From: Candidatus Nitrosopumilus sp.
Lineage (GTDB): Archaea; Thermoproteota; Nitrososphaeria; Nitrososphaerales; Nitrosopumilaceae
Length of the DNA stretch: 57,585 nt
Assembly: GCA_003702495.1 (NCBI GenBank)
Contig: REGH01000001.1
Location: 44,016-101,600, forward strand
Direction: 5' to 3'
Under the pieces are notes generated by a model that saw only the letters and a list, made by a program, of their open reading frames with translations, did no database searches and was not told the origin of the DNA. Shown here in pieces: positions 16,999-56,350 of this stretch; within the stretch, counting starts at the first letter, position 1, and every line of letters starts with the position of its first letter. Position numbers and translations under genes: made by a program.

Positions 16999-17418
16999 AT
17001 GGCAATTCGTCAATTTGACACATTAAGCAAGGAAGTCCTACAAGAAGTTAAATTGTTAAACGCCATTAATGATGTGGTTCAACAAAAAGCATCCACCACA
17101 GGTTCTGGATGGGTTCACTTGAATGACCCAAAAAAAATTTCCGATATTCTTGAAACGTTAGGAGATCCGCTAACCCGAAAAATTTTGATTGAGTTGAACA
17201 AAGCAGAATTAACTGCTTTAGATTTAAAAAATGCAATTCCAAATGCTCCCAAAACAACATTGTATAGGAAGTTAAATGAATTGCATGATAGAGGAATTGT
17301 CAAAATCAAGGCATTTGTTTCTAAAGATACAAAAAAAGTTGCCATTTACCAATCAACTTTATCTGGAATTCAAATTAACATGCAGAATGATATTGATCTC
17401 TTGATAAATTTAAGGTGA
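16999..17418 (+). CDS. winged-helix transcriptional regulator
   Basis: ISDILETLGDPLTRKILIELNKAELTALDLKNAIPNAPKTTLYRKLNELHDRGIVKI. Confidence 0.8.
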   Translation: MAIRQFDTLSKEVLQEVKLLNAINDVVQQKASTTGSGWVHLNDPKKISDILETLGDPLTRKILIELNKAELTALDLKNAIPNAPKTTLYRKLNELHDRGIVKIKAFVSKDTKKVAIYQSTLSGIQINMQNDIDLLINLR

Positions 17419-17522
17419 TTTTTTAGTTTTAAGAATCAGTACTAAAAATCGGGATTCAGATATTGTTTTTATCTATACTATTTTTATGACACGTGTAAAA
17501 ATTTCAAATTCATAGACGATAG

Positions 17523-17537
17523 TTCCAATTATTGGGA
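17523..17537. promoter_or_regulatory. inverted repeat ttCCAATtATTGGga upstream of receiver gene
   Basis: CCAAT-ATTGG dyad just upstream of AT-rich TATA-like sequence and the 17563 start. Confidence 0.5.
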
Positions 17538-17562
17538 TTCACATATTAACTTTTTATGTGAA

Positions 17563-17937
17563 GTGATTATGGATGAGTTAATGACTAAAAATGTGTTATT
17601 GATTGACGACAATCAAAAGATCAGAGAACTGTTCACAAGTTATTTGCAATTAAAGGGATACCAAGTCAAAGTTCTAGAAAGCGGAGTGGGAGCAGTAGAT
17701 GAAGTGGCTTCAAAGACATATGATGTTATAATTTTGGATTTGGCCATGCCCGAAGTGAGTGGATTTGAAGTTTTAGATGAAATGGTAATGAAAAAACTCT
17801 CTACAGAAAATGTGATTGTTTTAACAGCAGCTGATTTGTCAGAGAAGGAACAAGAGAAGATAAAGGCTTACAAAATTAAAGCATTTTTGGAAAAGCCAGC
17901 AGAACTTTCCACCATAATGGCATTGATTTCATGTTAG
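17563..17937 (+). CDS. stand-alone response regulator receiver
   Basis: VLLIDDNQKIRELF...DVIILDLAMPEVSGFEVLDEM...VIVLTAADLS...AFLEKPAEL. Confidence 0.92.
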   Translation: MIMDELMTKNVLLIDDNQKIRELFTSYLQLKGYQVKVLESGVGAVDEVASKTYDVIILDLAMPEVSGFEVLDEMVMKKLSTENVIVLTAADLSEKEQEKIKAYKIKAFLEKPAELSTIMALISC

Positions 17938-17969
17938 AATTGCAATATCTTGGATTTGGTGGAATTTAA

Positions 17970-19766
17970 TTGAATTTATTTTGGGGTATTGGAATTACTT
18001 CAGGTTTACTTCTTTTAGTATGGTTTGTTGGTTATGTAATCCCAAACGATTTTTCAGATGAACTCATTTCAAATGCATCGTACAATGTTGGAACTATGAG
18101 AATTGCAGATGACCCTATGAGTCCTTTAGAAGATCCCATACCAATTAGATTTGTTTGGACAAAATACATAGAAAATTCAGATGGGTATACTTTTGATGTA
18201 TCGACTAATTATCGGTACTCCGATATTCTTACTGGTGAGGTACTTTGGGAGATGTCCTTTGATGAAAGTTTTACATCTGGTTCTAAAGAATATGTTGATA
18301 AAGATGGACATTTTATGTTCCCACCCAATCTTCAACAAAAATCATATTCTGTATATGATGTCGGAGGGAGTATCCTAGAGAATGATTTTGTAAAAGAACA
18401 TGAAATGGATGGATTGACAGTATACGAGTTTTTTGGTGAAACTGTTTTAGATGTAACTGACCTTTATCCCGATTATGGGGTGCCTGTATTTGAGGAATAT
18501 GGAGCCAGAACTTTTGTTGAACAAAAGACGGGAGTTGAAATTAAATTTGAAGAGTCCTTTAGAGATTATGTCATATTAGATGAAAAGAAAATAATCCTAT
18601 TAGAAGCAGACACCAGCACTACAGAGAAGGCATCACAAATTACAATAAATCTTGTAAAAGAATATTTGAACTATGAATTTGAGTCATATATTTTGATTCC
18701 AGGAATTATAATTTCAAGTGCAGCGGCTTTTTCAATCTCAATTCATCTTAGAAATTCGTTTTCAAGTAATATTCAAAGTTGGGTAATACTGTTACCATCA
18801 ATAATTATTGTGATATTTGCGGCTTCTGTAATTGTAGATGAACCAGAAACCATCACCATAGGATTATCTGATTGGCCGGGATATTATACATTATTTGTCG
18901 CGGAGGACAAAGGATTCTTTAAAGAAAATGGCGTGGATGTTGAACTAGTATATTTACCTGATTATGATGATTCAATATCAAAATTCAAGAGCCACTATGT
19001 GGATGGGGTGATGATTGTCACCTCAGATATATTAGGACATCGAGACGAAGGTATTTTTTCGGAGGTGGTATGGGTGTCAAATATCTCCTTAGAAGGTGAT
19101 GCAGTTCTTGTAAAAGACGAAGCCTCAGTTGAAAAATTGAAAAGCGCAAACTGTTCTGAAACAAATTTTCAAACTTGTGAATATGTTGTTGGGGTGGTTT
19201 CGATAGACTCATTTTCCCACCTACTGATACTTGATTACCTTAGTTCCATCAATGTGAATCCAAATGATGTATTGATTAAAACTGTAGTCAATACAGAAAC
19301 AACTAGTGCACTTGAATCTGGGGATATTCTGTTAGGACATACATGGGAACCTTATGTGAAAGAATCAACTGATTTGAATCATCAGATTGTTTTCACTCCT
19401 GCAATGTCTGATTATTCAATTGTTGATGGGCTGATTTTTGAATCCGATTTTATGATAAATAACTCACATGATGTGAGAAAAATTGTAAAATCTTTGAATC
19501 AAGCACTAGATTTCGTAGATGAGAACCCACAAGAGGCTTTTGAAATCATGTCAAAATATTCAAAAGTTCCTGCAGACGACTTGAGAATATTTTATGAATC
19601 AATCAAAATTCCAACATCACGTGAACAGATGGAATCATTAGAAGCATCAGAAAATTCTTTGGCAATAGCACATCTTTTATACGATGAACAATTTTATTTT
19701 GAACGTACTCATGATTATACTAAACTCATTCAATTCGTGAACTATAATTTTGGAGCATTAAAATGA
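17970..19766 (+). CDS. membrane protein: DUF3068/PorA-like module plus NMT1/SsuA-like periplasmic-binding domain
   Basis: N-terminal TM, 'FPPNLQQKSYSVYD...MDGLTVYEF' module, internal TMs, then ITIGLSDWPGYYTLFVAEDKGFFKENGVDVELVYLPDYDDSISKF typical of NMT1/SsuA-type binding proteins. Confidence 0.75.
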   Translation: MNLFWGIGITSGLLLLVWFVGYVIPNDFSDELISNASYNVGTMRIADDPMSPLEDPIPIRFVWTKYIENSDGYTFDVSTNYRYSDILTGEVLWEMSFDESFTSGSKEYVDKDGHFMFPPNLQQKSYSVYDVGGSILENDFVKEHEMDGLTVYEFFGETVLDVTDLYPDYGVPVFEEYGARTFVEQKTGVEIKFEESFRDYVILDEKKIILLEADTSTTEKASQITINLVKEYLNYEFESYILIPGIIISSAAAFSISIHLRNSFSSNIQSWVILLPSIIIVIFAASVIVDEPETITIGLSDWPGYYTLFVAEDKGFFKENGVDVELVYLPDYDDSISKFKSHYVDGVMIVTSDILGHRDEGIFSEVVWVSNISLEGDAVLVKDEASVEKLKSANCSETNFQTCEYVVGVVSIDSFSHLLILDYLSSINVNPNDVLIKTVVNTETTSALESGDILLGHTWEPYVKESTDLNHQIVFTPAMSDYSIVDGLIFESDFMINNSHDVRKIVKSLNQALDFVDENPQEAFEIMSKYSKVPADDLRIFYESIKIPTSREQMESLEASENSLAIAHLLYDEQFYFERTHDYTKLIQFVNYNFGALK

Positions 19767-21403
19767 AATTTGATAAATTTCTTCAAGGAGTAATTTTTTT
19801 GATAATTTCAATTACCAGCGTCTCCATAATCGTAATTTCAAGTGTATTATTTGATATTGATGATAGAGCAGAATTAGATTCCACAATGAATGCCTATGCC
19901 CAACAAAAAACCAAAATACTGGTAGAGGAAATTTTTCAAACCAATCTTGAATTATACTTAATTGCTCAGTATGTCTCGCAAAATCTTTCAGATGATACAG
20001 TAAGCCATAATAATCTGAATATTTTGTATAATGAATCGGTTATTTTATTATTAGAAAAATTTGCCGCGACCCATGGAGTAGATAATATCATTATTTTTGT
20101 AGATGGAGTACCCCTTCAAACTTATAAAAATGTGCAATATCTAGATTATAACGAAATTGATTTTTCAAAAAAATTCCAACTTTTTAAAAATGGGGAAATA
20201 TTAGTTTCAAATGTAGAAATTGACTCAAAATTTGGACAAAAAATCAATGTTGTAGCGATTGAAAAGACACATTCCCTATTTCATGAACAAAACCGAGCTG
20301 ATGATATACTAATTTCAGGTCATCTTGATGGAGTTTTTTTCGGCAATATTCCTGAAGATGATTTTACAACATACAGGTACATTATTCCGATATATCCGAA
20401 TGAGGAAATTCAAGAACATTTTCAATTTGAATTCCATATAGAGAATGTGAATGAAACTGGATTTACGCAATGGGTTTCATTATTGATATCCATATCAATT
20501 CCACTCTCATTTGCTCCTCTAATTGCTGCATTGGTTTCAAGAAAATTCTCATCAAACATAGAGTCATTACTACAAATATCAAAAAGAGAAAAAACAAAAA
20601 GCAAATTCATATTTGATGAGCTAGACAAGGTAGCTAACGAGATTAAGGACGATCGGTTTAATCTTGAGTTAGCAAACAAAACACTAAATGAGCAAATATT
20701 ACAATTAAACAACATCAATTCTCAAAAAGAACTTTTCAACAGTGCTATTTCCCACTCCATGAAGACTTCACTTGTAACTATACAAGGATATAGTGAAATT
20801 CTTCTTGAAACCGAAACAAATCCTTCACAAAGAAAAATTTTAGAAAATATTGTAGATTCCAGTCAAAAACTAAAAATTCAGATCAATAACATATTGCAGT
20901 CTTTTAAAGATGAACAAAGTTTCAATTTACAAGGAGTAGCAATAGAAGATACAGATATTGAGCGAATTTCTTCAATTATCAAAAACACATATTCCAACAT
21001 GTTTAGACTGAACGATGTTGATTTTAAAATAATAACAAAAACAAAAAATTTGAAATTTGGAACACACAAAACAGTTCTGATTCAAATTCTTGGCAATCTC
21101 TTTACAAATGCCATTGAATTTTCAAAGGTAGAGAAAACTGTATCTTTGGAAATAAATTCTGATGACTCTAAAATCTATTTTATAGTATCAGATAAAGGAC
21201 AGGGAATACAAAAGGAATATCAAAATAGCTTGTTTTCCAAGTACTCTAACACATCATTGAATCTAAACAGAATGTATGGTGGAGCCGGTTTGGGACTTTA
21301 TATCTCAAAACAACTTGCAAAAGGTCTAGGAGGGGATTTGTATCTTGTAAAGTCTGAAATCAATAAGGGAAGTATATTTACTTTGGAGATTCCTAATAAT
21401 TAA
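19763..21403 (+). CDS. sensor histidine kinase with divergent H-box
   Basis: Two TMs; AISHSMKTSLVTIQGYSEIL; ILGNLFTNAIEFS; VSDKGQGI; GGAGLGLYISKQLAKGLGG. Confidence 0.87.
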   Translation: MKFDKFLQGVIFLIISITSVSIIVISSVLFDIDDRAELDSTMNAYAQQKTKILVEEIFQTNLELYLIAQYVSQNLSDDTVSHNNLNILYNESVILLLEKFAATHGVDNIIIFVDGVPLQTYKNVQYLDYNEIDFSKKFQLFKNGEILVSNVEIDSKFGQKINVVAIEKTHSLFHEQNRADDILISGHLDGVFFGNIPEDDFTTYRYIIPIYPNEEIQEHFQFEFHIENVNETGFTQWVSLLISISIPLSFAPLIAALVSRKFSSNIESLLQISKREKTKSKFIFDELDKVANEIKDDRFNLELANKTLNEQILQLNNINSQKELFNSAISHSMKTSLVTIQGYSEILLETETNPSQRKILENIVDSSQKLKIQINNILQSFKDEQSFNLQGVAIEDTDIERISSIIKNTYSNMFRLNDVDFKIITKTKNLKFGTHKTVLIQILGNLFTNAIEFSKVEKTVSLEINSDDSKIYFIVSDKGQGIQKEYQNSLFSKYSNTSLNLNRMYGGAGLGLYISKQLAKGLGGDLYLVKSEINKGSIFTLEIPNN

Positions 21404-22950
21404 TGCCCAGAAACTCATCAAAGATAATTTTAGTAATCGTTTCAGTTTTTGTCATAGTTAATGTTTATTGGTTTTCTTCATTTATTCCCGAACAATATGC
21501 ACTTAGTGCAGATTATTCACGAGGTACCGAATTTTTTGGAAGAGATAAAATAGTTAGTGGGTATGGAGAGGATTTTTTGGAGGAAACCAAACACCAAAGA
21601 AATTCAATTGAAAGAGTAATTCAAAGAGATGGAGATATTTTGAAGATTGAGGCAGAAATCATTTCAAAGCATGTACTGACTGAAAAAGTGGTTTTTAATG
21701 CATTTGATAGTTATGAGATTAACAGAATTACAAAAAAGCATGTTGATTCTGATTTGTATTATGCATTTCCTTCAAACGTTCAAAAAACCAGTTATGACTT
21801 CCTGCACCCAGTAATTCACAGACCAACAACATTTGAGTATGTCTCAAACGAAATGATAGATGGCTTGGAAGTATATCTTTTTGAGTGCAAGCCTTCTGTA
21901 AATGATAATACTGCAGCCTTTTCTCAATTTGAAGGAAAGACAATCAATGTGGAATACTCTTGTTCATTGTGGATAGAGCCAATCACTGGAAGGTTGATTA
22001 ACATGGACATTGGATGGGACAATTATTTTGTAGAAGATGGGCAGAGAGTTTTCCCAACACAAAAAGGTGGAAGTGGTGCATCAGAGCTTTTTGTTTTTGA
22101 TGCTGTATCGTTGGCTAAATTTAATTTAGAAATCCTGAACATTTATCAAAACATCATCCCAATCATCTTTGCCATAATTACTGGGTTGATGATCTTAGTT
22201 GTTTTATTTTTGGATAGATTAAACTCTGCAACAAGGAAAAAAATTCAAACTGAACTTGAAATTCAAAAGCAAACTAACGAATTCACAAATATGATTTCAC
22301 ATGAGTTAAAGACTCCCTTGACACCCATAAAGGGGTACTGTGAAATGCTAAAAGACCCCCAGTTACTGGGACCGCTGGATTCCAATCAAAATGATGCCGT
22401 CGATAAGATTGAGCGAGAAAGCAATCATCTCTTGGAACTAATTGAAAGCGTACTTTTGGTAAGAAAAATGGATAATGAAATTTTTGATATTAGTACTTCT
22501 GAGGTGTATCTAGATGAAATGGTAGAGGAATTTTGTGATAAATACACTCAGGAATTTAATAACCGCAGTATAGATTTTGTTGTAGAAGAGTCACCACACA
22601 TAAAAATCAAAGTTGACAAAAAACTCATGGGCAGGGTCTTTGCAAATATTTTGAGTAATTCGTTAGATTTTACCCCCAAACACACAGGAAAAGTAACAGT
22701 TAGTTCCAGTATTGATTCGGATCAAGTAACTTTTTACATTAGAAATAATGGTCCTGAAATTCCACAGAATGAACTAGAAAATCTATTCAAGAAATTCTAT
22801 CAATTAGACACTACATTAACTAGGCCTCATGAAGGTTCTGGACTCGGACTTGCAATTTGTAAAGGAATCATAGAATCACATAAAGGAAAGATTTGGGCAG
22901 AAAGTAACAGCAAGGAAACATCTTTTATATTCAGATTTCCTAAATCCTAA
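21403..22950 (+). CDS. sensor histidine kinase with DUF3068/PorA-like extracytoplasmic domain
   Basis: FPSNVQKTSYDF...MIDGLEVYLF...SLWIEPITGRLINMDIGWD; MISHELKTPLTPIKGYCEML; GSGLGLAICKGIIESHKGKIWAESNSKETSFIF. Confidence 0.87.
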   Translation: MPRNSSKIILVIVSVFVIVNVYWFSSFIPEQYALSADYSRGTEFFGRDKIVSGYGEDFLEETKHQRNSIERVIQRDGDILKIEAEIISKHVLTEKVVFNAFDSYEINRITKKHVDSDLYYAFPSNVQKTSYDFLHPVIHRPTTFEYVSNEMIDGLEVYLFECKPSVNDNTAAFSQFEGKTINVEYSCSLWIEPITGRLINMDIGWDNYFVEDGQRVFPTQKGGSGASELFVFDAVSLAKFNLEILNIYQNIIPIIFAIITGLMILVVLFLDRLNSATRKKIQTELEIQKQTNEFTNMISHELKTPLTPIKGYCEMLKDPQLLGPLDSNQNDAVDKIERESNHLLELIESVLLVRKMDNEIFDISTSEVYLDEMVEEFCDKYTQEFNNRSIDFVVEESPHIKIKVDKKLMGRVFANILSNSLDFTPKHTGKVTVSSSIDSDQVTFYIRNNGPEIPQNELENLFKKFYQLDTTLTRPHEGSGLGLAICKGIIESHKGKIWAESNSKETSFIFRFPKS

Positions 22951-22953
22951 AAA

Positions 22954-24654
22954 TTGGAAAGAACAACCTATTCAGCTATTGGTCTATTTACCATAGGGAT
23001 AATAATCACCATTGCGACATGGTTCACTATTTTTGATATAATTGAAGATAGTTATCTAGCATCATTTCAAGATGAAAGTCAATCTAAGATAAACAAAATT
23101 GAATCTCGTTTGCAGATTTATAATGGAATTTTGTTAGGTTCCGTAGGACTATTTGCTGCATCAGAAGAGGTAACCAATAATGAATGGAATACTTTCATCA
23201 GTTCAACAAGAGTCATTGATACATTTCCTGGAATTCAAGGAATTGGATTTAACAAATACATTATCAGTGAATCCGAAAAAGCAGAATTGGTAAACACTAT
23301 GAGAGATTACGGGATGGAGGATTTTGAGGTAAAACCTCCTGGTGAAAGAAGCGAATATTTTCCGGTAGTCTATTTGTTTCCAGATAACGAAGCCAACAAA
23401 CGAGCAATTGGGTATGATATTAACTCTGAACCAATTCGGTCAGAAGCAATAACTAAACTAAAGACAAGCCAAGAATTGACAATTACTGGAAAAATCATAT
23501 TAGTTCAAGAATCTGGACAAAACATTCAAAATGGTTTTTTGATGTTGTTGCCAGTATTTGATAAAAGTGGAGACAAGTTGATTGGCTTAATCTCTGCTGT
23601 TTTCAGAATGAATGATTTGATGGAACCAATTATTGAAAATGAATTTATTGAAAAAAACAATATTCGACTTTACGATTCTGAAGAAATTCCAGACAATATT
23701 TTATATGATTCAAATGAATTTGTCGAAGTAACAAATATTCAAGAAGAATATTTGTTTAGAGATTCAATCAATTTTGGAAATCGAGAATGGATTTTTGTGA
23801 TTCAATCTGGTCCTCCTGAATTAACTGATTCTGATAGAAACGTGTTGATTGCAATTCCACTTGTAGGTTTAGGAATTACTATAATGGGATTAGTTGCATT
23901 TTTGAATTTCAACAAAACTGTTGTTGCAAAACAAATCCAAAAAAGACGTGATGAATTTGATTCCATGATTTCTCACGAGTTAAAGACTCCTTTGGTTCCT
24001 ATTATCGGATATTGTGATATGTTACTTTCTCCAGATTTGTTAGGAAAACTTAATCATGATCAGTTGGAGGCAGTAAAAAAAATTCTTAGTAATACGGATC
24101 ACATGAAATCATTAATTCAAACAATTTTAGATATACAGAAAATAGATTTAGACAAACTTAAACTAGATTTCTCTATTGTTGATTTGAGAGAATTTATTTC
24201 AGAGATTATACATTCCCACCAATCAATTATGGTTGAAAAAAATATCCAATTGACAATGAATTCAATTCCGTCATTAAATGTTAGAATAGATAAAGAAAGG
24301 ATCAAAGAGGTAATAACAAATATCATTCAGAATGCAGTTGATTTTGTACCCAAAAATAATGGAACAATAAATGTGGAGGGTCAAGATTTGGGCAATAAAT
24401 TTAGAATTACTATTTCAAACAACGGTAAGCAAATTCCACATGATCAATTACAACAAATTTTCAAAAAATTTCATCAAGTTGATACCGGAGAGACAAGAGT
24501 GCATGGAGGTTCTGGGCTCGGACTGGCAATTTGCAAAGGAATCCTAGAATTGCATGGAGGAAAGATTTGGGCAGAAAGTAACAGCAAGGAAACGTCCTTC
24601 ATATTTGAGATACCATCAAAAATTAATAGTGGTAAAGGGGAAGACAAATCATGA
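22954..24654 (+). CDS. CHASE-domain sensor histidine kinase
   Basis: FPGIQGIGFNKYI...FPVVYLFPDNEANKRAIGYDINSEPIRSEAI (CHASE-like); MISHELKTPLVPIIGYCDML; GSGLGLAICKGILELHGGKIWAESNSKETSFIF. Confidence 0.9.
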   Translation: MERTTYSAIGLFTIGIIITIATWFTIFDIIEDSYLASFQDESQSKINKIESRLQIYNGILLGSVGLFAASEEVTNNEWNTFISSTRVIDTFPGIQGIGFNKYIISESEKAELVNTMRDYGMEDFEVKPPGERSEYFPVVYLFPDNEANKRAIGYDINSEPIRSEAITKLKTSQELTITGKIILVQESGQNIQNGFLMLLPVFDKSGDKLIGLISAVFRMNDLMEPIIENEFIEKNNIRLYDSEEIPDNILYDSNEFVEVTNIQEEYLFRDSINFGNREWIFVIQSGPPELTDSDRNVLIAIPLVGLGITIMGLVAFLNFNKTVVAKQIQKRRDEFDSMISHELKTPLVPIIGYCDMLLSPDLLGKLNHDQLEAVKKILSNTDHMKSLIQTILDIQKIDLDKLKLDFSIVDLREFISEIIHSHQSIMVEKNIQLTMNSIPSLNVRIDKERIKEVITNIIQNAVDFVPKNNGTINVEGQDLGNKFRITISNNGKQIPHDQLQQIFKKFHQVDTGETRVHGGSGLGLAICKGILELHGGKIWAESNSKETSFIFEIPSKINSGKGEDKS

Positions 24655-25007
24655 AAATACTAATTGTTGATGATTCTTTTGAAATTAGAGAAATGTTGAG
24701 TTCTTTTTTAAAACTAAAGGGAGATACCCCAGATACTGCAGGTGATGGTTTAGAAGCAGTAAAAAAAATTCAAGACAATGACTATGATGTTATTCTTTTG
24801 GATCTGGCTATGCCAAAATCCAGTGGTTTTGACGCATTAGCAGAACTAAAAAACAAAAACATCTTAAATTCTGAAAAAATCTTTGTGTTAACTGCAATGA
24901 ACATTACAAAGACCGAAAGAGAAAAAATTGAAAAGTTTGGAGTGAAAAATTTAATTTTAAAACCCATGAAGATTCAAGAATTATACTCTAAAATTTCTTT
25001 GATGTAA
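24651..25007 (+). CDS. stand-alone response regulator receiver
   Basis: ILIVDDSFEIREML...DVILLDLAMPKSSGFDAL...FVLTAMN...LILKPMK. Confidence 0.92.
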   Translation: MKILIVDDSFEIREMLSSFLKLKGDTPDTAGDGLEAVKKIQDNDYDVILLDLAMPKSSGFDALAELKNKNILNSEKIFVLTAMNITKTEREKIEKFGVKNLILKPMKIQELYSKISLM

Positions 25008-27362: not shown

Positions 27363-28586
27363 ATGAGTAAATTTTCTCAAGAGATCGAAGTTAACGGACA
27401 CCTAATTGATTCATTGATCCTAACCAAAATATTTGATAAGATTATGGATTTGCAAGGAGAGTTTCAAGTAGAAGAAATCAATATTGGTAAAAAGAAAAAA
27501 GACCAGTCATATGCTAGATTATTAGTTAAAGGTAAAAATCAAAAACATCTCGATGAAATTTTACAAACCATTTACAGAGAAGGTGCAGTATCCAAAATTC
27601 AAAAACAAATCACTCTGAAAAAAGCTCCAAAGAATTTTGTGATGCCAGATAATTTTTACAGTACAACCAACAACCATACCCAAGTTTTTCACAAAGGCAA
27701 ATGGATTCAAGTGGAAAACATGATGATGGACAAGTGTATTGTCGTAAAAGGAAATAGGGCATTTTGTGTTCCTATAAGAGATGTCAAAAAAGATGATCAA
27801 ATAATTGTTGGTGAAGGCGGAGTCAAAATTAATCCGCCTGAAAGGCCAAGAGAAGGCTCCAACGTATTTCAATTTATGGGAAGCTCAAGTTCCAGTGAGA
27901 GACCAACTCAACATATTGCAAAAAAAGTAGCTGACGATATTTACAATACCAAAAAGAAAGGTGGAAAAATTGTGATTGTGGGAGGTCCTGCAATTGTTCA
28001 CACAGGTGCCTCAGATGCAGTTTCAGAACTTATCAGATCAGGGTATATTGACGGAGTTTTGGCAGGTAATGCATTAGCAGTTCACGATATAGAGTATGCC
28101 ACAATAGGAACATCATTAGGAATGAATGTTCATGACGCAACTTTGGCATATCACGGGCATAGAAACCACATGGATGCAATCAATTCGGTATTCAAGGCAG
28201 GTTCTATTGCAAACATGGTAAAAACCAAGAAACTTACAAAGGGAATCATGTATGAATGTGTGAAGAATAAAGTACCATTTGTTTTGGCAGGTTCCATTAG
28301 AGATGATGGTCCATTACCCGACGTAATTACGGATGTTGCACAAGCTCAAAGAGAGTACAAAAAAGTACTAAAAGATGCAAAGATGGTCATAATGATTTCA
28401 ACTATGCTTCATTCCATTGCAACAGGTAATATGTTACCTGCAAATGTCAAAGTGATCGTTGTAGATATTAATCAACCAACAGTGACAAAACTTATGGATA
28501 GAGGTACGTGGCAAGCATTAGGCATTGTTTCTGATGTAGGTGCATTCTTGCCAATGGTTGCACAGCAAATTAGAAAAAAGAAATGA
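27363..28586 (+). CDS. LOR/SDH-domain protein (archaeal ornithine cyclodeaminase-like, TIGR00300-type)
   Basis: MSKFSQEIEVNGHLIDSLILTKIFDKIMDLQGEFQVEEINIGKKKKDQSYARLLVKG...GGPAIVHTGASDAVSELIRSGYIDGVLAGNALAVHDIE. Confidence 0.8.
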   Translation: MSKFSQEIEVNGHLIDSLILTKIFDKIMDLQGEFQVEEINIGKKKKDQSYARLLVKGKNQKHLDEILQTIYREGAVSKIQKQITLKKAPKNFVMPDNFYSTTNNHTQVFHKGKWIQVENMMMDKCIVVKGNRAFCVPIRDVKKDDQIIVGEGGVKINPPERPREGSNVFQFMGSSSSSERPTQHIAKKVADDIYNTKKKGGKIVIVGGPAIVHTGASDAVSELIRSGYIDGVLAGNALAVHDIEYATIGTSLGMNVHDATLAYHGHRNHMDAINSVFKAGSIANMVKTKKLTKGIMYECVKNKVPFVLAGSIRDDGPLPDVITDVAQAQREYKKVLKDAKMVIMISTMLHSIATGNMLPANVKVIVVDINQPTVTKLMDRGTWQALGIVSDVGAFLPMVAQQIRKKK

Positions 28587-28771: not shown

Positions 28772-29338
28772 TTGGTAAAAGTAATACAAGTTGCAATAGT
28801 GTTTGGAATTTTATCATCAGGTCTGGTTACAATAAATGATTATGCATTTGCAGATATACATCTGGCAAATTTTGTAGATCCTGATAAAAATCCACATCAT
28901 TATTTGGATAGATACTATAATGAACCAACATACAAGTCCTGGTTTGATAGAAATTATCCAAACATTACCATTGAACAAGCAGTAGGAATTATCAATGATG
29001 ATTCAGTAATCAATTCAATTCTCAAAAAAGAAATCATGCCAGAAGCTGACGCAACACAAGTTTCTCAAGAAACAACACGGGTAAATAATTCTGAAACTGC
29101 ACATATGATTTTAGCAATTGGTGGATTGGGAATATTGTTTGGAGCAGTATATGGAATTAAAAGAAAAGTGAATGACAATACAAGGCAAATTTCAATTAAC
29201 AAGAACTCTATCAAAAATAAGATTATCAAACCAATAACAAGAACAACTCCAATAGAGATTCTTCAAACTAGATTGGCAAAAGGGGAGATTTCATTTGAAG
29301 AGTTTGAAAGACTAGAAAAGAAATTACATCCTAATTAG
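28772..29338 (+). CDS. secreted/membrane protein with C-terminal SHOCT-like motif
   Basis: Signal-like N-terminus, one TM, TPIEILQTRLAKGEISFEEFERLEKKL. Confidence 0.65.
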   Translation: MVKVIQVAIVFGILSSGLVTINDYAFADIHLANFVDPDKNPHHYLDRYYNEPTYKSWFDRNYPNITIEQAVGIINDDSVINSILKKEIMPEADATQVSQETTRVNNSETAHMILAIGGLGILFGAVYGIKRKVNDNTRQISINKNSIKNKIIKPITRTTPIEILQTRLAKGEISFEEFERLEKKLHPN

Positions 29339-30689
29339 GGATTTTTACATTATTTTTCATTAACATCAATTCATTAACTGCGTCTTTTTTAAGGGCGCCA
29401 AAGAATTTCTCAATCATTCCCAAGCCTGCTACTATTTTGGGGGCATTTTCATTCACAAATTGGGTTCTCTCTGAATGGGTTTTAGGTCTATTTTCACGAT
29501 ATTTTTTGTAGACCTCGCCACCATCATAATCAACATAAGCAATTCTTGCACTAAAATCAGTTCTTTCTAAAACTAGACTATCCCCACCCACTATTGCAGT
29601 ATGGTATGGATGAACTATGAATGATTCAGATAATTTTTGTGAAGTTCTTATCCTAGCTTTTTGTAATTCTGGAGCATATGCATTAAAATCTGCCAATAGA
29701 TAGAATGTTGCTTCAGGTTTAGTTGCTTTGATTCCATCAATTGATGTTAATCTATGATAGGTGTACTCTCCCATTATTTTGTGTATGTTTCTTGTTATCT
29801 CAAAATATTCATCCATTTCTTGACTAATTTCAAATCCAGCTACTGCTGCATGTTGAATTGGTGTTGAAACTGCAGTATATTCAGTTGCAAGAATTTTTTT
29901 GAATTGTGCTCTAAGTTCTGTTGCATGTTGTGGGAAAATTACATATCCCAGTCTATATCCACCTGCAGCATGGGATTTTGACAAGCCATTTGTGACAAAT
30001 GTTCCCTCAGGATAGATTTTTCCCATACTGACAAATTTTGAAAAATCATATGTGGTTTGTGCATAGATTTCGTCTGAAATCACAGTAATGTTTAGTTCTC
30101 TACAAACATCAGCAATCTCTTCTAATTCTAATCGATTGTAAAGTAATCCTGTTGGATTGTGGGGGTTGTTTAGTATGAGGATTTTTTGTCTGTCTTGTAG
30201 TCTTAATGCTAGTCGTCTAAGATCATTTGGTGCAATCTTTTTGTTTGCACGGGTTGGTAACATGTGGTAGTTTTTCTTTAGGAATCTGATTTGTGGAAGG
30301 TATCCTAGCCATGCAGGGGTAGGTAGGATTACTGTTCCATGTAAAATTTCTAATAAATTAAAAATTAGTTCTTTTGTTCCAGGGCCAACATAGATTCTGT
30401 CGGGAGATACATCCATTCCAAAGTAATGTTTATTGTATTTTGAAATTGCATTTCTTAATTCAGGAATACCAGGAACTGCAGCATATTCCCCTTTGTGAAC
30501 ATTTTTGATTAATGCTTCTTGAATTAATCTAGGCACAGGGAAAGGAGATTGTCCAAATGCAAAGCCATAAAATCCAAAACCACATTCTGGATGAGTACAA
30601 TCAGAATGAAATTCTTGCAAAAATGTGTTTAATTTGAGATTTTCAGGCATCTCAATGTCTTCAACTTGTTGGTCAACTACAAATTTCAA
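29331..30689 (-). CDS. class I/II PLP-dependent aminotransferase
   Basis: LILNNPHNPTGLLYNRLELEEIADVCRELNITVISDEIYAQTTYD...TNGLSKSHAAGGYRLGY. Confidence 0.88.
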   Translation of the reverse strand: MKFVVDQQVEDIEMPENLKLNTFLQEFHSDCTHPECGFGFYGFAFGQSPFPVPRLIQEALIKNVHKGEYAAVPGIPELRNAISKYNKHYFGMDVSPDRIYVGPGTKELIFNLLEILHGTVILPTPAWLGYLPQIRFLKKNYHMLPTRANKKIAPNDLRRLALRLQDRQKILILNNPHNPTGLLYNRLELEEIADVCRELNITVISDEIYAQTTYDFSKFVSMGKIYPEGTFVTNGLSKSHAAGGYRLGYVIFPQHATELRAQFKKILATEYTAVSTPIQHAAVAGFEISQEMDEYFEITRNIHKIMGEYTYHRLTSIDGIKATKPEATFYLLADFNAYAPELQKARIRTSQKLSESFIVHPYHTAIVGGDSLVLERTDFSARIAYVDYDGGEVYKKYRENRPKTHSERTQFVNENAPKIVAGLGMIEKFFGALKKDAVNELMLMKNNVKIPN

Positions 30690-39034: not shown

Positions 39035-39832
39035 TCAATTATTTTTTGCAGTAACTTCCATTCCATGTTGAGACTTTATGATATACTTGTCTCTAATTTT
39101 GACACTAACCCAGTCAATTATCAATACTGCTGCCAAAACTACCAACATAAAGACGGCAGCTTTTCCATATTCAAAGAACTTGATGTAATTGATAATGTAA
39201 AATCCAATTCCACCTGCGCCGACTAGTCCCAGAATACTTGTTTGACGCACATTGTAGTCAAACATGTAAAGCATCTGACTCAATAAATGAGATGCAGATT
39301 CAGGAATCACAACATATCTGATTAACTGCCATTTTGAGACACCGATTGAACTTACTGCATCCATAGGATCTGAATCAATTGTTTCAATTGCCTCATACTG
39401 CAATTTTGCGACAAATCCTATCGTATACATGATAATTGCTAGAACCCCTGCAAATGGTCCCAATCCAACCATAATTACAAACAAAATTGCCCAAAGAATT
39501 GATGGAAATGTACGGATTGCTGCCAACAATGCACGAATTGGAGCATAAACATACTTGCTGTTGAGATTTCTTGCTGCAAGCATACTCAATGGTAATGCAA
39601 TTGCAACACCAACAATTGTTCCAATAAAGGCCATCTGAATAGTTTCAAACATTGCCCAAAGAGCAGTAGGAATGTATTTTGATTCAACTTCGAGCATCTC
39701 TTCAGCTACAATTCCAAGATTTGGCAACCCTTGAACAAAGTCAACAGGATTGGCATCTATGTTGTAAGAGGCTGCAACAAGTAACGCAATGATAATTCCG
39801 ATGACGATGTTATTTTTTGGTGTCATCAGCAT
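39035..39832 (-). CDS. phnE: phosphonate ABC transporter permease
   Basis: Multi-TM permease; RALLAAIRTFPSILWAILFVIMVGLGPFAGVLA; YNVRQTSILGLVGAGGIGFYI. Confidence 0.92.
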   Translation of the reverse strand: MLMTPKNNIVIGIIIALLVAASYNIDANPVDFVQGLPNLGIVAEEMLEVESKYIPTALWAMFETIQMAFIGTIVGVAIALPLSMLAARNLNSKYVYAPIRALLAAIRTFPSILWAILFVIMVGLGPFAGVLAIIMYTIGFVAKLQYEAIETIDSDPMDAVSSIGVSKWQLIRYVVIPESASHLLSQMLYMFDYNVRQTSILGLVGAGGIGFYIINYIKFFEYGKAAVFMLVVLAAVLIIDWVSVKIRDKYIIKSQHGMEVTAKNN

Positions 39833-40640
39833 ACATCTCCATAATTTCTTCAGTGTTCATATCACCAGTCTGAAAATCAACAATAGTATCACCCTCAACA
39901 CCAATCTCAAGAATTTTTTGCCCTTCTTTGATAACTGCAACACGATTGGCATATTCTAATGCAAGTTGCATGTCGTGATGAACCATTATTGCAGTAAGAT
40001 TCATACTCTTTTGAGCATCTGCAATCAAATCCATAATTTCACGAGCTGTTACATGATCTAATTCTGATACAATTTCATCAGCAAGAAGGATTGTTGGATG
40101 TTGCATTAATGCTCTAGCAATTGCAACCCTTCTCTTTTCACCACCACTTAGCATGTAGGCTTTTCTTTCTTCTTTTCCAGAAAGACCAACTTGTGAAATA
40201 ATTTTTTTAGCTTCTGTAACTTCATTTTCAGGAAATTTTTTGAAAAAAGATTGAACTTTTCCTAATCTTGGGAGTGCACCAATCAGAATATTTTCTAGAA
40301 CAGTACTATTTTTCACCAATCCGAGATTTTGAGGAATGTAGCCAATAGTATGCATCATTTTTTTGAATTTTTTATCATTCATGTTTGGAGTGATGTAATC
40401 AATTTTGATGGTACCTTTACTAGGAATCATCATTCCATTCATTAGTTTTAGCAAAGTAGATTTCCCTGAACCAGATTGTCCAACTATGGCATAATTTGTA
40501 CCTCTGTCAATAGACATGTTAATTCCTTCTAGTGCAAAGCTTTTCGAATCATATGATGTCCAGACATCATTCATTTGGATAATTTTCTTTGTTGCAATTG
40601 AAGAAAAAGAAAGATTTGCGGTCATCTGAATTTGTTTCAT
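39810..40640 (-). CDS. phnC: phosphonate ABC transporter ATP-binding protein
   Basis: IVGQSGSGKSTLLKLMNG, MLSGGEKRRVAIARALMQHPTILLADEIVSELD. Confidence 0.9.
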   Translation of the reverse strand: MKQIQMTANLSFSSIATKKIIQMNDVWTSYDSKSFALEGINMSIDRGTNYAIVGQSGSGKSTLLKLMNGMMIPSKGTIKIDYITPNMNDKKFKKMMHTIGYIPQNLGLVKNSTVLENILIGALPRLGKVQSFFKKFPENEVTEAKKIISQVGLSGKEERKAYMLSGGEKRRVAIARALMQHPTILLADEIVSELDHVTAREIMDLIADAQKSMNLTAIMVHHDMQLALEYANRVAVIKEGQKILEIGVEGDTIVDFQTGDMNTEEIMEMYADDTKK

Positions 40641-40658
40641 TTTTCAGAATTCCTGTTT

Positions 40659-41747
40659 TTATTTGCTCTTGTCGTATTTGTCAAGTATCTTCTGATCAAG
40701 TCCTGTTAATGCGTTGATAAATTCACCGAATTCACCTATGTGCATTGTAGTGGTAGTTGGAACTAGTGCTTCAGCACCATACAAGTCTGTCAAGATTGAA
40801 TTGTGTTCATCATAGTTTAGTTTGATTAGACTGTCTACTAGTGCATTTTTGGTAGAGTCTGATATATCAGCGCTTACCATAAACACATGAGATGGCACTG
40901 GTCCAATAGTTGTAACTGGACGTAACTTCTTTTGATCCTCTAACTCAAGATACTTTGCAGGTGCGATATCAGAACCAAAGGCGACATCAACTTTTTCTTC
41001 TAGAAGCAAGGTTAATGCTGCTTTGTAACCACCAGCAAAGGTGTAACTTTCAAAGTTGTTTGCTAATGCAGATTCGAGTGCAACGATATCGTCACCCTCA
41101 ATGGTTATGTGGCCTTCTGTAACTAGAGTTCCCATTGGTCTAACAAAACCAGAGGAGCCAGTCATGCTGGTAAATGCAACTTTCTTGCCAACAGTATCTT
41201 CGATTGATTGAAGAGAATCATTTTCTGCCAGTGTCCAAACTGTTGCCTGGTAATTCACTTTGCCTTTGACAAGTTCTGCCAATACAGCTTCTGCACCAGT
41301 TCTTTCATGGGTAATCCATGCAGGTCCAGTATCCATAAATGCAGCATCAATGTGACCAAATCTCATTCCTTCAATAATGGTCTCATAATTTGTTGGAATT
41401 ACTACCTCAACATCAACACCCAATTCATTTTCTAGGAATTCTTCTAGTGCTTGGGCTTTAGGAGTTAACTCGTCGGCCTTTTCAACTGGAATAAATCCAA
41501 TGGTTAGAGTGTCAACATCTACAGATTTTGAATCAGATGAAACATTGATGATTCCGTTTTCAATTAGGAATGTTATCCCATTTAGAAAAGTTTCATCATC
41601 TACAGCGCCTTCTGCCCACCAACCGGCATTGTTCTTAATCCAATCAGGAATAGAACTCTGTGCTTGTGCGGTTTGGCTCAAAGGAATTGTTGCGATGCCA
41701 ATAGCTACAAATGCAACAATAATCGCCATGGTTGTTTTTTGTTTCAT
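40659..41747 (-). CDS. phnD: phosphonate ABC transporter substrate-binding protein with N-terminal WWA module
   Basis: TLTIGFIPVEKADELTPKAQALEEFLENELGVDVEVVIPTNYETIIEGMRFGHIDAAFMDTGPAW; IPDWIKNNAGWWAEGAVDDETFLNGITFLIENGIINV after signal peptide. Confidence 0.92.
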   Translation of the reverse strand: MKQKTTMAIIVAFVAIGIATIPLSQTAQAQSSIPDWIKNNAGWWAEGAVDDETFLNGITFLIENGIINVSSDSKSVDVDTLTIGFIPVEKADELTPKAQALEEFLENELGVDVEVVIPTNYETIIEGMRFGHIDAAFMDTGPAWITHERTGAEAVLAELVKGKVNYQATVWTLAENDSLQSIEDTVGKKVAFTSMTGSSGFVRPMGTLVTEGHITIEGDDIVALESALANNFESYTFAGGYKAALTLLLEEKVDVAFGSDIAPAKYLELEDQKKLRPVTTIGPVPSHVFMVSADISDSTKNALVDSLIKLNYDEHNSILTDLYGAEALVPTTTTMHIGEFGEFINALTGLDQKILDKYDKSK

Positions 41748-47663: not shown

Positions 47664-49265
47664 TTGTTTATGAAATTTTTAATTTTTAGTATTGCATTTT
47701 TAGTTTTATTTGCAGTTCCTACAGCATTTGCACAACATCATGGAGGAGAACAAGCACCGCCAGTCTCATTTGGAGATGGGGAATTAACCATAGGTACAAC
47801 AATATTTCCAATCGATTACACAGTTGGAAAAGATTCCAGTCTGGATTTGAATATCCGATTGTTTGATACGGCCTCAAATATGAATATCGAAAGTGTGACT
47901 TACAGAGTCCAAATTCTTCAAGGCACTCAACTAGTAGCGAATCAAATGTTTTATGATCAAGATGGAGAATTGAATCTAAAGATCAAACCAAAATCAGGCT
48001 GTGAAGAAAAAGAGTTATGGAAATGCACTAAATATTTTGGTGAAAATGATCCTATTGTTCCAAACGCCCTTGTTTCCTCAGCATCAAGTACACCAGTGAT
48101 TTCAGGTCCAGTTTTTCACGAGAGTGGAGAATACGTAGTTAAGACATCCATAATTGGGGCAAAGAATCCAAAAACTCAGACATCTGAAGACATTGAATTT
48201 GAAACAAGATTATTCATTCCATCTGAGAAAATTTTTACAGTTTTAATAAATCAAAATGAATACAAAATTCCTGTAAAAAATTATCAAGAACCAATAACAG
48301 ATATGATTTTTGATTCAGATACAAAAAAATTATCATTTGAAATGCCTATTGATTGGAATCATTTAGAGCATACACATCATTTGAAAAACTCATTCGAGTT
48401 CCCAAAATCATTTCTAGGTTTTGAAGAAGTGTATGGTTTCACAGCTATTGTAAATGATGATTTTGTCATACCTAATGCCCTACATTATGATACGATATCA
48501 AAAAAGAATTCCAATGTCATTCATTTTATGATTGATCAAGAAAATCTAAAGAAGGTTAAAAATAATTCAGAAAGTCTTAAAATTTCTATTTTGCCAGGCA
48601 ATGATTCAACTTTTGTAAAAAAAGAAATTCAGTTTGATAATAGTTTTTCAGCATTAATCCAATACGATTCAGTTTTTTCTCAACAAAAAGAGTTGACGCT
48701 CAGTCTAGCATTTTTTGAAAATGGAGAATATATTGAAAATGTTAGATATGGATATTCAATTACCCATCCTAATGGAATTAAAGAACTAAACACAGGTGGG
48801 AATCAAAATGTCTTGGGAATTACATTACCTCAAGGAAATGAAATTAGAGAATTTGGAAGTTCGCAAGAAGGAAAATATAAGATTCAGCTTGTTTTGATTG
48901 GCAAAGATTCTCAAGATTTACCAAGTTATCTATATTCTGAATTTGACTTGGAATTAATAGAAAACACAGAAAAAATTCAAGACCCAACCATACCAAAAGA
49001 GATTCCTGCATGGGTAAAGAACAACGCAAAATGGTGGGCAGAAGGTTCCATAGATGATGGCTCCTTTGTTCAAGGAATCCAGTTCTTAATCAAAGAGAAA
49101 ATTATGAATGTTCATTCAGTTGTAGAGACAGGTGATTCTTCAAAAGAGATTCCTGCATGGGTAAAGAACAACGCAAAATGGTGGGCAGAAGGTTCCATAG
49201 ATGAGAGTTCTTTTGTTTTGGGCATAGAATTTCTAATAAAGCAAGGAATTGTTCAAGTAGAGTAG
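47664..49265 (+). CDS. secreted surface protein with two C-terminal WWA modules
   Basis: Signal peptide; two copies of EIPAWVKNNAKWWAEGSIDxxSFVxGIxFLIKxxI. Confidence 0.82.
   Translation: MFMKFLIFSIAFLVLFAVPTAFAQHHGGEQAPPVSFGDGELTIGTTIFPIDYTVGKDSSLDLNIRLFDTASNMNIESVTYRVQILQGTQLVANQMFYDQDGELNLKIKPKSGCEEKELWKCTKYFGENDPIVPNALVSSASSTPVISGPVFHESGEYVVKTSIIGAKNPKTQTSEDIEFETRLFIPSEKIFTVLINQNEYKIPVKNYQEPITDMIFDSDTKKLSFEMPIDWNHLEHTHHLKNSFEFPKSFLGFEEVYGFTAIVNDDFVIPNALHYDTISKKNSNVIHFMIDQENLKKVKNNSESLKISILPGNDSTFVKKEIQFDNSFSALIQYDSVFSQQKELTLSLAFFENGEYIENVRYGYSITHPNGIKELNTGGNQNVLGITLPQGNEIREFGSSQEGKYKIQLVLIGKDSQDLPSYLYSEFDLELIENTEKIQDPTIPKEIPAWVKNNAKWWAEGSIDDGSFVQGIQFLIKEKIMNVHSVVETGDSSKEIPAWVKNNAKWWAEGSIDESSFVLGIEFLIKQGIVQVE
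48994..49057 (+). repeat. 64-nt exact direct repeat, copy 1
   Basis: caaaagagattcctgcatgggtaaagaacaacgcaaaatggtgggcagaaggttccatagatga. Confidence 0.95.
49141..49204 (+). repeat. 64-nt exact direct repeat, copy 2
   Basis: Identical to 48994-49057, offset 147 nt (49 codons). Confidence 0.95.
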
Positions 49266-55298: not shown

Positions 55299-55652
55299 TC
55301 AACAAATTAAGGACATTAGTGTTGGAAGTTCTGTTGGTTTTTCCAAAAATGCTTTAATTTTGTAGGATTTTAACTTGGCTCTTTCTTCATCTGAAACATC
55401 AGCTGCTGTTAAAACTACCACATTTTCTCTAGAAACATTATTCTTTTCCATAATGTCTAAAACTTCAAATCCGCTAACTTCGGGCATTGCCAAATCTAAA
55501 AGAATAATATCGTAATTATTAGAGGATAATTCTTCTATTATATTTAATCCGTTTTCAAGAGTTTTCACCTGAAGTCCCTTTAATTCCATATAAGATGCGA
55601 ACAGTTCTCTTATCTTTTGATTATCATCAATTACTAATACTTGCTTACTCAT
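55299..55652 (-). CDS. stand-alone response regulator receiver
   Basis: VLVIDDNQKIRELFASYMELKGLQVKTLENG...DIILLDLAMPEVSGFEVLDIM...VVVLTAADVS...AFLEKPTEL. Confidence 0.92.
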   Translation of the reverse strand: MSKQVLVIDDNQKIRELFASYMELKGLQVKTLENGLNIIEELSSNNYDIILLDLAMPEVSGFEVLDIMEKNNVSRENVVVLTAADVSDEERAKLKSYKIKAFLEKPTELPTLMSLIC

Positions 55653-55694
55653 AGATTTCCAAATACATATTTCTGAATATAAGTAAATATTAAA

Positions 55695-55711
55695 TTCCCA
55701 ATTTTTGGGAA
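55695..55711. promoter_or_regulatory. inverted repeat TTCCCAA-ttt-TTGGGAA upstream of receiver gene
   Basis: Perfect 7-bp arms just upstream of TATA-like TTTAATATTTACTTATA (minus strand). Confidence 0.55.
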
Positions 55712-56350
55712 TGAGATTTTATTAATTTAAAAAATTAGATCTGTGAAGAATGCTTGAAAACGGATTTAGTATCGGTAAGTGTCATAGTGGATCGCCATTT
55801 GATGTAGAGAATAGAATTGCTTGATATGTAATTTCTTCATCATAGTCTTTATTTCGACCAGTGATGTTCATTCACTTTTAATAAATTCAAATTCTGCAAG
55901 ATGCTTTTGATGATGGTAAATCTTTGTTTAAAAATTATCAAAATTTTTTACATCTAATCGGGTAATTTACACGTCTTTTTCAGTTTATTACAAGAACAGA
56001 AATTAATTCAAGATAGAACAAACCAGAAACGTGTTATTTGTCATGTGTAAATAACTAAAATCTTGAGTCTTTAGGTGGATTAGCTAATCTCAAATCTTTT
56101 CTTTGAGTAGAATATTTTCTATGCTCAGACGGATTACAACATAGGTAATTGTGTAGATAATAGATACCCTTTATCAATTAAATAAAGAACAATTAGTTTT
56201 TTTATTGGGCATAATATCAAGGAGAATTTGTGATCGTGAAGTTTAACTCAATTTCATATCTGTTAATAAGGTTTTAGGATATTTTATGTCAAAAAGAAGA
56301 AACTTGTTTAATACCTAGATCAATTTTTTGTAACCTAGATCCTTTGTTTT

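Follow-up and report, generated by a model that had tools for sequence, protein, structure and literature searches.

In bacterial three-component systems such as LuxP-LuxQ, ChvE-VirA, XylFII-LytS and CuaD-CuaS-CuaR (PMC10384115), for which AatJ-AauS-AauR (PMC7386598) provides a further comparison, the gene for an extracytoplasmic binding protein adjoins that of a membrane sensor kinase, and the binding protein is devoted to signalling or shared with it. We found no paper on archaeal three-component systems among the open-licence papers searched. In thaumarchaea, about 75% of response regulators are receivers without an output domain; these mostly lack conserved neighbours, and receiver (REC) genes adjoining HTH_20 genes are known (PMC5847659). 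The DUF3068/PorA family (PF11271) has been described as exclusive to actinobacteria (PMC9678360). Its mycobacterial member LmcA is a CD36-like barrel for which lipid binding has been proposed (PMC8972800); PgfA, the same protein, contacts a trehalose monomycolate analogue (PMC9678360). We describe here a locus at positions 16999-25007 of a 57,585-nt stretch (bases 44016-101600 of contig C14; hereafter referred to as the window) of a 1.27-Mb Nitrosopumilus-type archaeal genome. The locus encodes a winged helix-turn-helix protein (wHTH), two receivers (REC1 and REC2), a binding protein (PBP) and three histidine kinases (HK1 to HK3).

As in the bacterial systems, the gene for an extracytoplasmic binding protein adjoins that of a membrane kinase. 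This locus differs from them in being archaeal, in having a membrane-spanning binding protein of the NMT1/SsuA class fused to a DUF3068 domain, in having receivers without DNA-binding output, and in lacking an adjacent dedicated transporter. The locus is real and in part conserved, a modular assembly of several sensors that appears to be of three-component type. Our preferred reading, with a probability of roughly 0.6, is that of a modular multi-input sensory system, in which PBP and HK1 would form a three-component sensor and HK2 and HK3 would act in parallel on REC1 and REC2. This reading is based on the gene set and its domains, the anchoring of PBP, the conservation of set and site in Nitrosopumilus sp. 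SFB3 (hereafter referred to as G172) and, in part, in a second relative (G159), and the clade-wide coupling of PBP-type NMT1 domains to kinases. The features are as follows.

16999..17418, + strand: wHTH (HTH_20/HxlR/ArsR-like; Pfam), putative DNA-binding protein; the G172 orthologue is 54% identical and adjoins REC1
17438..17547, no strand: two imperfect repeats with GGGATTCA[GC]ATATT, candidate REC1 operator/promoter
17563 (GTG) or 17572 to 17937, + strand: REC1, stand-alone receiver (Pfam Response_reg)
17970..19766, + strand, TTG start: PBP, the "NMT1" protein (Pfam, AlphaFold2, Foldseek)
19763..21403, + strand: HK1, membrane histidine kinase (Pfam HisKA and HATPase_c; no Pfam match in the ectodomain)
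21403..22950, + strand: HK2, histidine kinase with a PorA/DUF3068 ectodomain (Pfam; orthologues in G172 and G159)
22954..24654, + strand, TTG start: HK3, CHASE-domain histidine kinase (Pfam; orthologues in G172 and G159)
24651..25007, + strand: REC2, stand-alone receiver (Pfam; orthologues in G172 and G159)
55299..55652, - strand: REC3, a paralogue of REC1 within the window (66% identity)

An earlier, sequence-only reading had listed the seven genes with their coordinates and start/stop overlaps, and we found nothing wrong in this parts list: all seven frames are intact, and the overlaps can be read directly (ATGA at 19763-19766, TAATG at 21401-21405 and ATGA at 24651-24654). HK2 and HK3 are separated by 3 nt, and REC1 and PBP by 32 nt. 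Pfam searches identified HTH_20/HxlR in wHTH, Response_reg in the two receivers (2.6e-22 and 2.3e-21), NMT1_2 (9.2e-13) and PorA (2.2e-8) in PBP, HisKA and HATPase_c in all three kinases, PorA (7.5e-13) in HK2 and CHASE (4.2e-45) in HK3. The parts list lacked the PorA/DUF3068 domain common to PBP and HK2, the 144-nt gap between wHTH and REC1 with its promoter-like and operator-like repeats, the third receiver, REC3, and a second kinase/receiver cluster lying just beyond the window.

PBP is a new fusion, consisting of a transmembrane anchor, a DUF3068/PorA ectodomain with the LmcA fold, two transmembrane helices and an extracellular SsuA/TauA-like domain. Its Pfam matches span residues 114-231 (PorA) and 291-523 (NMT1). 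In the AlphaFold2 model (mean pLDDT 87), residues 2-23 form a transmembrane helix and residues 36-217 the beta-barrel ectodomain; residues 219-264 make up a long helix that includes a transmembrane segment, residues 270-288 are a further transmembrane helix, and a two-lobed binding domain follows from residue 295. The transmembrane nature of the helices and the extracellular side were deduced from the sequence. In Foldseek searches, the binding domain matched TauA, SsuA and NrtA, with TauA and SsuA as the closest solved folds. Relatives of known structure have nitrate, bicarbonate, taurine/sulfonates, pyrimidines, thiamin or pyrroloquinoline quinone as ligands, and none of these stands out. 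The barrel matched mycobacterial LmcA (7n3v/7shw; TM-score 0.65-0.67 by target). By Pfam and model topology, with the sidedness deduced as above, PBP is anchored, lies outside the membrane and has no cytoplasmic domain, only short loops; any signal must therefore pass sideways, to a partner.

The similarity to actinobacterial PgfA/LmcA comprises both the fold (TM-score 0.67 by target) and PF11271 matches above the Pfam cut-off of 29.5 bits (34.2 for PBP and 48.9 for HK2, covering only the C-terminal half of the profile). The difference lies in the setting: here, PBP and archaeal histidine kinases carry the domain as an ectodomain. Of 300 Nitrososphaerota genomes, 19 contain PF11271; all 19 belong to Nitrosopumilaceae, and the domain lies nearly always in kinase-length frames, several of which were checked and had kinase motifs. 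A domain family known for actinobacterial lipid handling thus serves as an archaeal kinase ectodomain. Orphan PorA-kinases in four genomes (G007, G032, G033 and G035) were rejected as relatives of PBP, with which they have only the PorA half in common.

The gene content of the locus is conserved beyond chance, with all seven genes found again at this site in G172 and three of them in G159. Between the same flanking genes, G172 carries all seven genes (41-69% identity), with PBP-HK1 divergent from wHTH-REC1-HK2-HK3-REC2, and G159 carries HK2-HK3-REC2 alone; HK2 orthologues are 68-70% identical and HK3 orthologues 62-63% identical. The locus is built of modules at a single fixed genomic site, with conserved content but not conserved order. 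Thus, the single unit postulated in the sequence-only reading stands as a signalling gene set, kept in G172 and as a core in G159, but not as one obligatory transcript, given the divergent PBP-HK1 pair of G172. That reading named a lack of gene-order conservation as grounds for refutation, and the order indeed differs, but content and position are conserved. Synonymous divergence (dS) from G159 is 1.4-2.0 in HK2, HK3 and REC2 and 0.24-0.92 in most flanking genes (27363-28586 and 29331-30689, at ~1.4-1.5, are exceptions). The higher operon values suggest that the operon alleles may be older than their flanks and that exchange, of alleles or of cassettes, may have taken place at this one site. 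The allele replacement indicated by these values, the presence or absence of modules and the atypical motifs of the kinases (the H-box of HK1 and the G1 boxes of HK2 and HK3) would also fit a kinase island that is of recent assembly or in decay and whose genes, exchanged as cassettes, serve no common function, some of the kinases being impaired. We consider such an island unlikely: the frames are intact, the oddities are preserved at 41-70% identity, and the seven-gene set occupies the same site in G172.

Two other features of this region were observed. The deoxyhypusine-synthase-like gene at 27363-28586 is 94% identical to that of G172 and 77% identical to that of the otherwise closer G159 (dS ~1.4), a probable allele replacement in G159. 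In G172, a 1725-aa secreted-looking protein (L043:10140-15317), absent from the window and from G159, lies between REC2 and the pduO side.

Among 250 genomes of the family, a full-length PBP orthologue was found only in G172 (42% identity); in nine further genomes NMT1 is a separate protein, in most cases about 330-340 aa long. Nearly all the separate NMT1 genes directly precede a kinase gene, with a receiver nearby in most cases, and the archaeal NMT1/kinase pairs overlap or are separated by a few bases. A scan of GTDB genomes extended this gene order to Nitrospirota, Nitrospinota, Omnitrophota, Riflebacteria and Magnetococcales. Phylogenetic analysis was performed on 83 NMT1 domains from trimmed rows, as the untrimmed global alignment mixed PorA-kinase and NMT1 parts. 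PBP fell into a clade of 23 rows (SH-like approximate likelihood-ratio test, SH-aLRT, 94), of which 18 are kinase-adjacent, two lie near a kinase on the opposite strand, three have neither neighbour and none is linked to ATP-binding cassette (ABC) genes. The ABC-linked rows formed a separate group (54 of 55; SH-aLRT 85), with the remaining one on a long basal branch, and less similar NMT1 relatives lie mostly in ABC-transport operons. On this tree, the PBP lineage therefore appears to go with kinases and not with ABC transporters. It could still be argued, from the match of the NMT1 domain to ABC substrate-binding families and its closeness to TauA and SsuA, that PBP is an orphan SsuA/TauA-type transporter component placed among kinase genes by chance. 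This is improbable: PBP has no NMT1-type permease or ATPase gene as a neighbour, its clade is kinase-linked and never ABC-linked, and the 4-nt overlap of PBP and HK1 is found in both the window and G172, even where the pair lies on the strand opposite the other genes. The proposal of the sequence-only reading that a ligand-binding membrane protein belongs with a kinase is thereby strengthened.

Other Nitrosopumilaceae, as well as groundwater and marine bacteria, have NMT1-HK(-REC) loci (L045, L046, L049, L050, L066, L071 and others) that resemble this one in clade membership, in the kinase gene immediately downstream and in the mostly adjacent receiver. Those loci have NMT1 proteins of about 330-340 aa with a single transmembrane anchor or lipobox and a dCache kinase, whereas PBP is anchored by a PorA domain and three transmembrane helices and is accompanied by a kinase with a divergent ectodomain and by two extra kinases. 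All nine partner kinases scanned outside PBP-HK1 (eight with NMT1, one with Peripla_BP_6) had dCache-like ectodomains, mostly below the Pfam cut-off, and eight had a HAMP match. LuxQ has a double-PAS domain related to the dCache-like ectodomains of most partner kinases in the PBP clade. One genome (G175; L049:8751-16412) contains two tandem NMT1-HK pairs with receivers within 8 kb.

The three kinases are membrane sensors, each with its own ectodomain. HK1 has intact ATP-binding (DxGxG) boxes and an H-box, SHSMKTSL, that is the same in the window and G172 but not canonical: Ser, not the Glu/Asp seen in 54 of the 58 kinases in which the His aligns, follows the phospho-acceptor His. HK2 and HK3 have a typical H-box (HELKTPL) and G1 boxes, NNGPEI and NNGKQI, with NNG rather than DxG in the window, G172 and G159 (Asp in 53 of 58 kinases); NNG also occurs in L058, a further Nitrosopumilus kinase. 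The retention of these features across species at 41-70% identity identifies them as conserved oddities, not random decay. The serial phosphorelay through three kinases, ending at a receiver, that was proposed in the sequence-only reading draws on the adjacency of three kinases and two receivers and on translational coupling. It is very improbable, because no Hpt (histidine phosphotransfer) domain or kinase-fused receiver was detected by Pfam in the seven proteins, all three kinases have ectodomains of their own, and G159 has only two kinases and one receiver; parallel transmembrane sensors converging on two CheY-like receivers fit better. Least likely of all is a split-kinase arrangement, in which HK1, with its intact DxGxG and defective-looking H-box, would provide ATP binding in trans to HK2 and HK3, with their perfect HELKTPL and NNG in both species, since G159 retains HK2-HK3 with the same NNG but without HK1, so that complementation is not required, L058 also has NNG, and the dimerisation domains are divergent.

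Several observations weigh against a multi-input system centred on PBP-HK1. The HK2-HK3-REC2 core stands alone in G159 and needs no PBP-HK1. HK1 is atypical, with no Glu/Asp after its His and no recognisable dCache or HAMP domain (its divergent ectodomain has no Pfam match and a poor AlphaFold2 model, with a pLDDT of 57.6), and may be mainly a phosphatase or partner-dependent. In the tree, the ABC group takes in two kinase-linked rows, those of Scalindua and Neomarinimicrobiota, and a third, that of Anaerolinea, stands apart; three clade members (from Nitrosocosmicus and two Pacearchaeota; L075, L076 and L090) have no kinase or ABC genes nearby; and long branches (win_PBP, L043_PBP from G172, L061 and others) make the details unsure.

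For the multi-input system, we infer the following mechanism. The extracellular NMT1 domain of PBP would bind a small solute, and its binding state would pass sideways to HK1, through the membrane or between ectodomains, as in an archaeal three-component sensor resembling LuxPQ or CuaDSR. HK2, with a PorA/LmcA-like ectodomain that is possibly lipid- or envelope-sensing, and HK3, through CHASE, would provide parallel inputs. All three kinases would act on REC1 and REC2, which would work by protein-protein contact. A bolder version, which we consider doubtful, makes PBP a dual sensor and lateral integrator, with the NMT1 domain reading a nutrient and the LmcA-like domain reading the envelope or a lipid and docking on the corresponding LmcA-like ectodomain of HK2 and also on HK1, so that a single membrane complex of PBP and kinases would bring several signals together on the stand-alone receivers; if true, this complex would be a multi-kinase, binding-protein-driven kind of sensor not described in archaea. 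Ammonia-oxidising archaea are among the most abundant cells of the sea, and their nutrient sensing is almost unknown. Related binding proteins coupled to kinases elsewhere in archaea and in bacteria point to a little-noticed route of small-molecule sensing in these organisms, and the kinase-coupled clade of binding proteins, in archaea and co-occurring bacteria, is a defined sensor family for ligand screening in vitro.

Both REC1 and REC2 consist of a receiver domain only, as the sequence-only reading had stated, with the canonical DD, D, T and K residues and all phosphorylation residues kept. REC1 is 63% identical to its G172 orthologue and 66% identical to REC3, and close relatives were found only in the window and G172. 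That reading also placed wHTH in the set, consistent with its joint presence with REC1 (window, G172) or joint absence (G159); wHTH-like genes also adjoin NMT1-HK-REC genes in two other genomes (G155 and G156). As in the thaumarchaeal pairs of stand-alone REC and ArsR-type HTH_20 genes (Galperin 2018, PMC5847659), an HTH_20 wHTH adjoins a stand-alone receiver, but here the genes are co-directional rather than divergent, and kinases and a binding protein are present at the locus. The 144-nt gap, with its own promoter-like and operator-like repeats, suggests that wHTH is probably a separate transcript, outside that of REC1. The second repeat contains a near-palindrome, CCAATTATTGGGATT. Palindromes lie before REC1 in G172 and before REC3 (TTCCCAAAAATTGGGAA, at 55694-55712, resembling the site before REC1), with a degenerate version before REC1 in the window. 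Genome-wide, only two sites, one ahead of REC1 and one ahead of REC3, match the pattern CCAAWWATTGGGAWT exactly; as it was derived from these very sites, the shared pattern is a lead and not a test. As part of the REC1 module, wHTH would most likely control the REC1 promoter through the palindromic site, or be contacted by REC1.

The second kinase array shares the contig (L017:26-8867; G000:C14:24041-32882) and is encoded on the minus strand, with about 28 kb between it and the first cluster downstream. Its order is REC, HK (with two HisKA stretches), a Peripla_BP_6 protein, dCache-HAMP-PAS-HK, a CHASE-only membrane protein, HK, PAS-HK and REC, giving four kinases between two terminal receivers, and the binding protein is not accompanied by transporter genes. 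Such arrays are unusual for the genus: this genome has two stretches with at least three same-strand HisKA genes within 10 kb, against a single one in the 39 other genomes searched, and seven of the 12 HisKA kinase genes of this genome fall in the two clusters. Relatives of the Peripla_BP_6 protein form binding protein-HK-REC sets in two other genomes (G107 and G192, the latter with a dCache-like kinase ectodomain), so two unrelated classes of binding protein have apparently become kinase partners in the Nitrosopumilaceae.

Elsewhere in the window, PhnCDE-like ABC genes of phosphonate type lie at positions 39035-41747; their binding protein has a short IP(A/D)W(I/V)KNNA-WWAEG segment in common with the protein encoded at 47664-49265.

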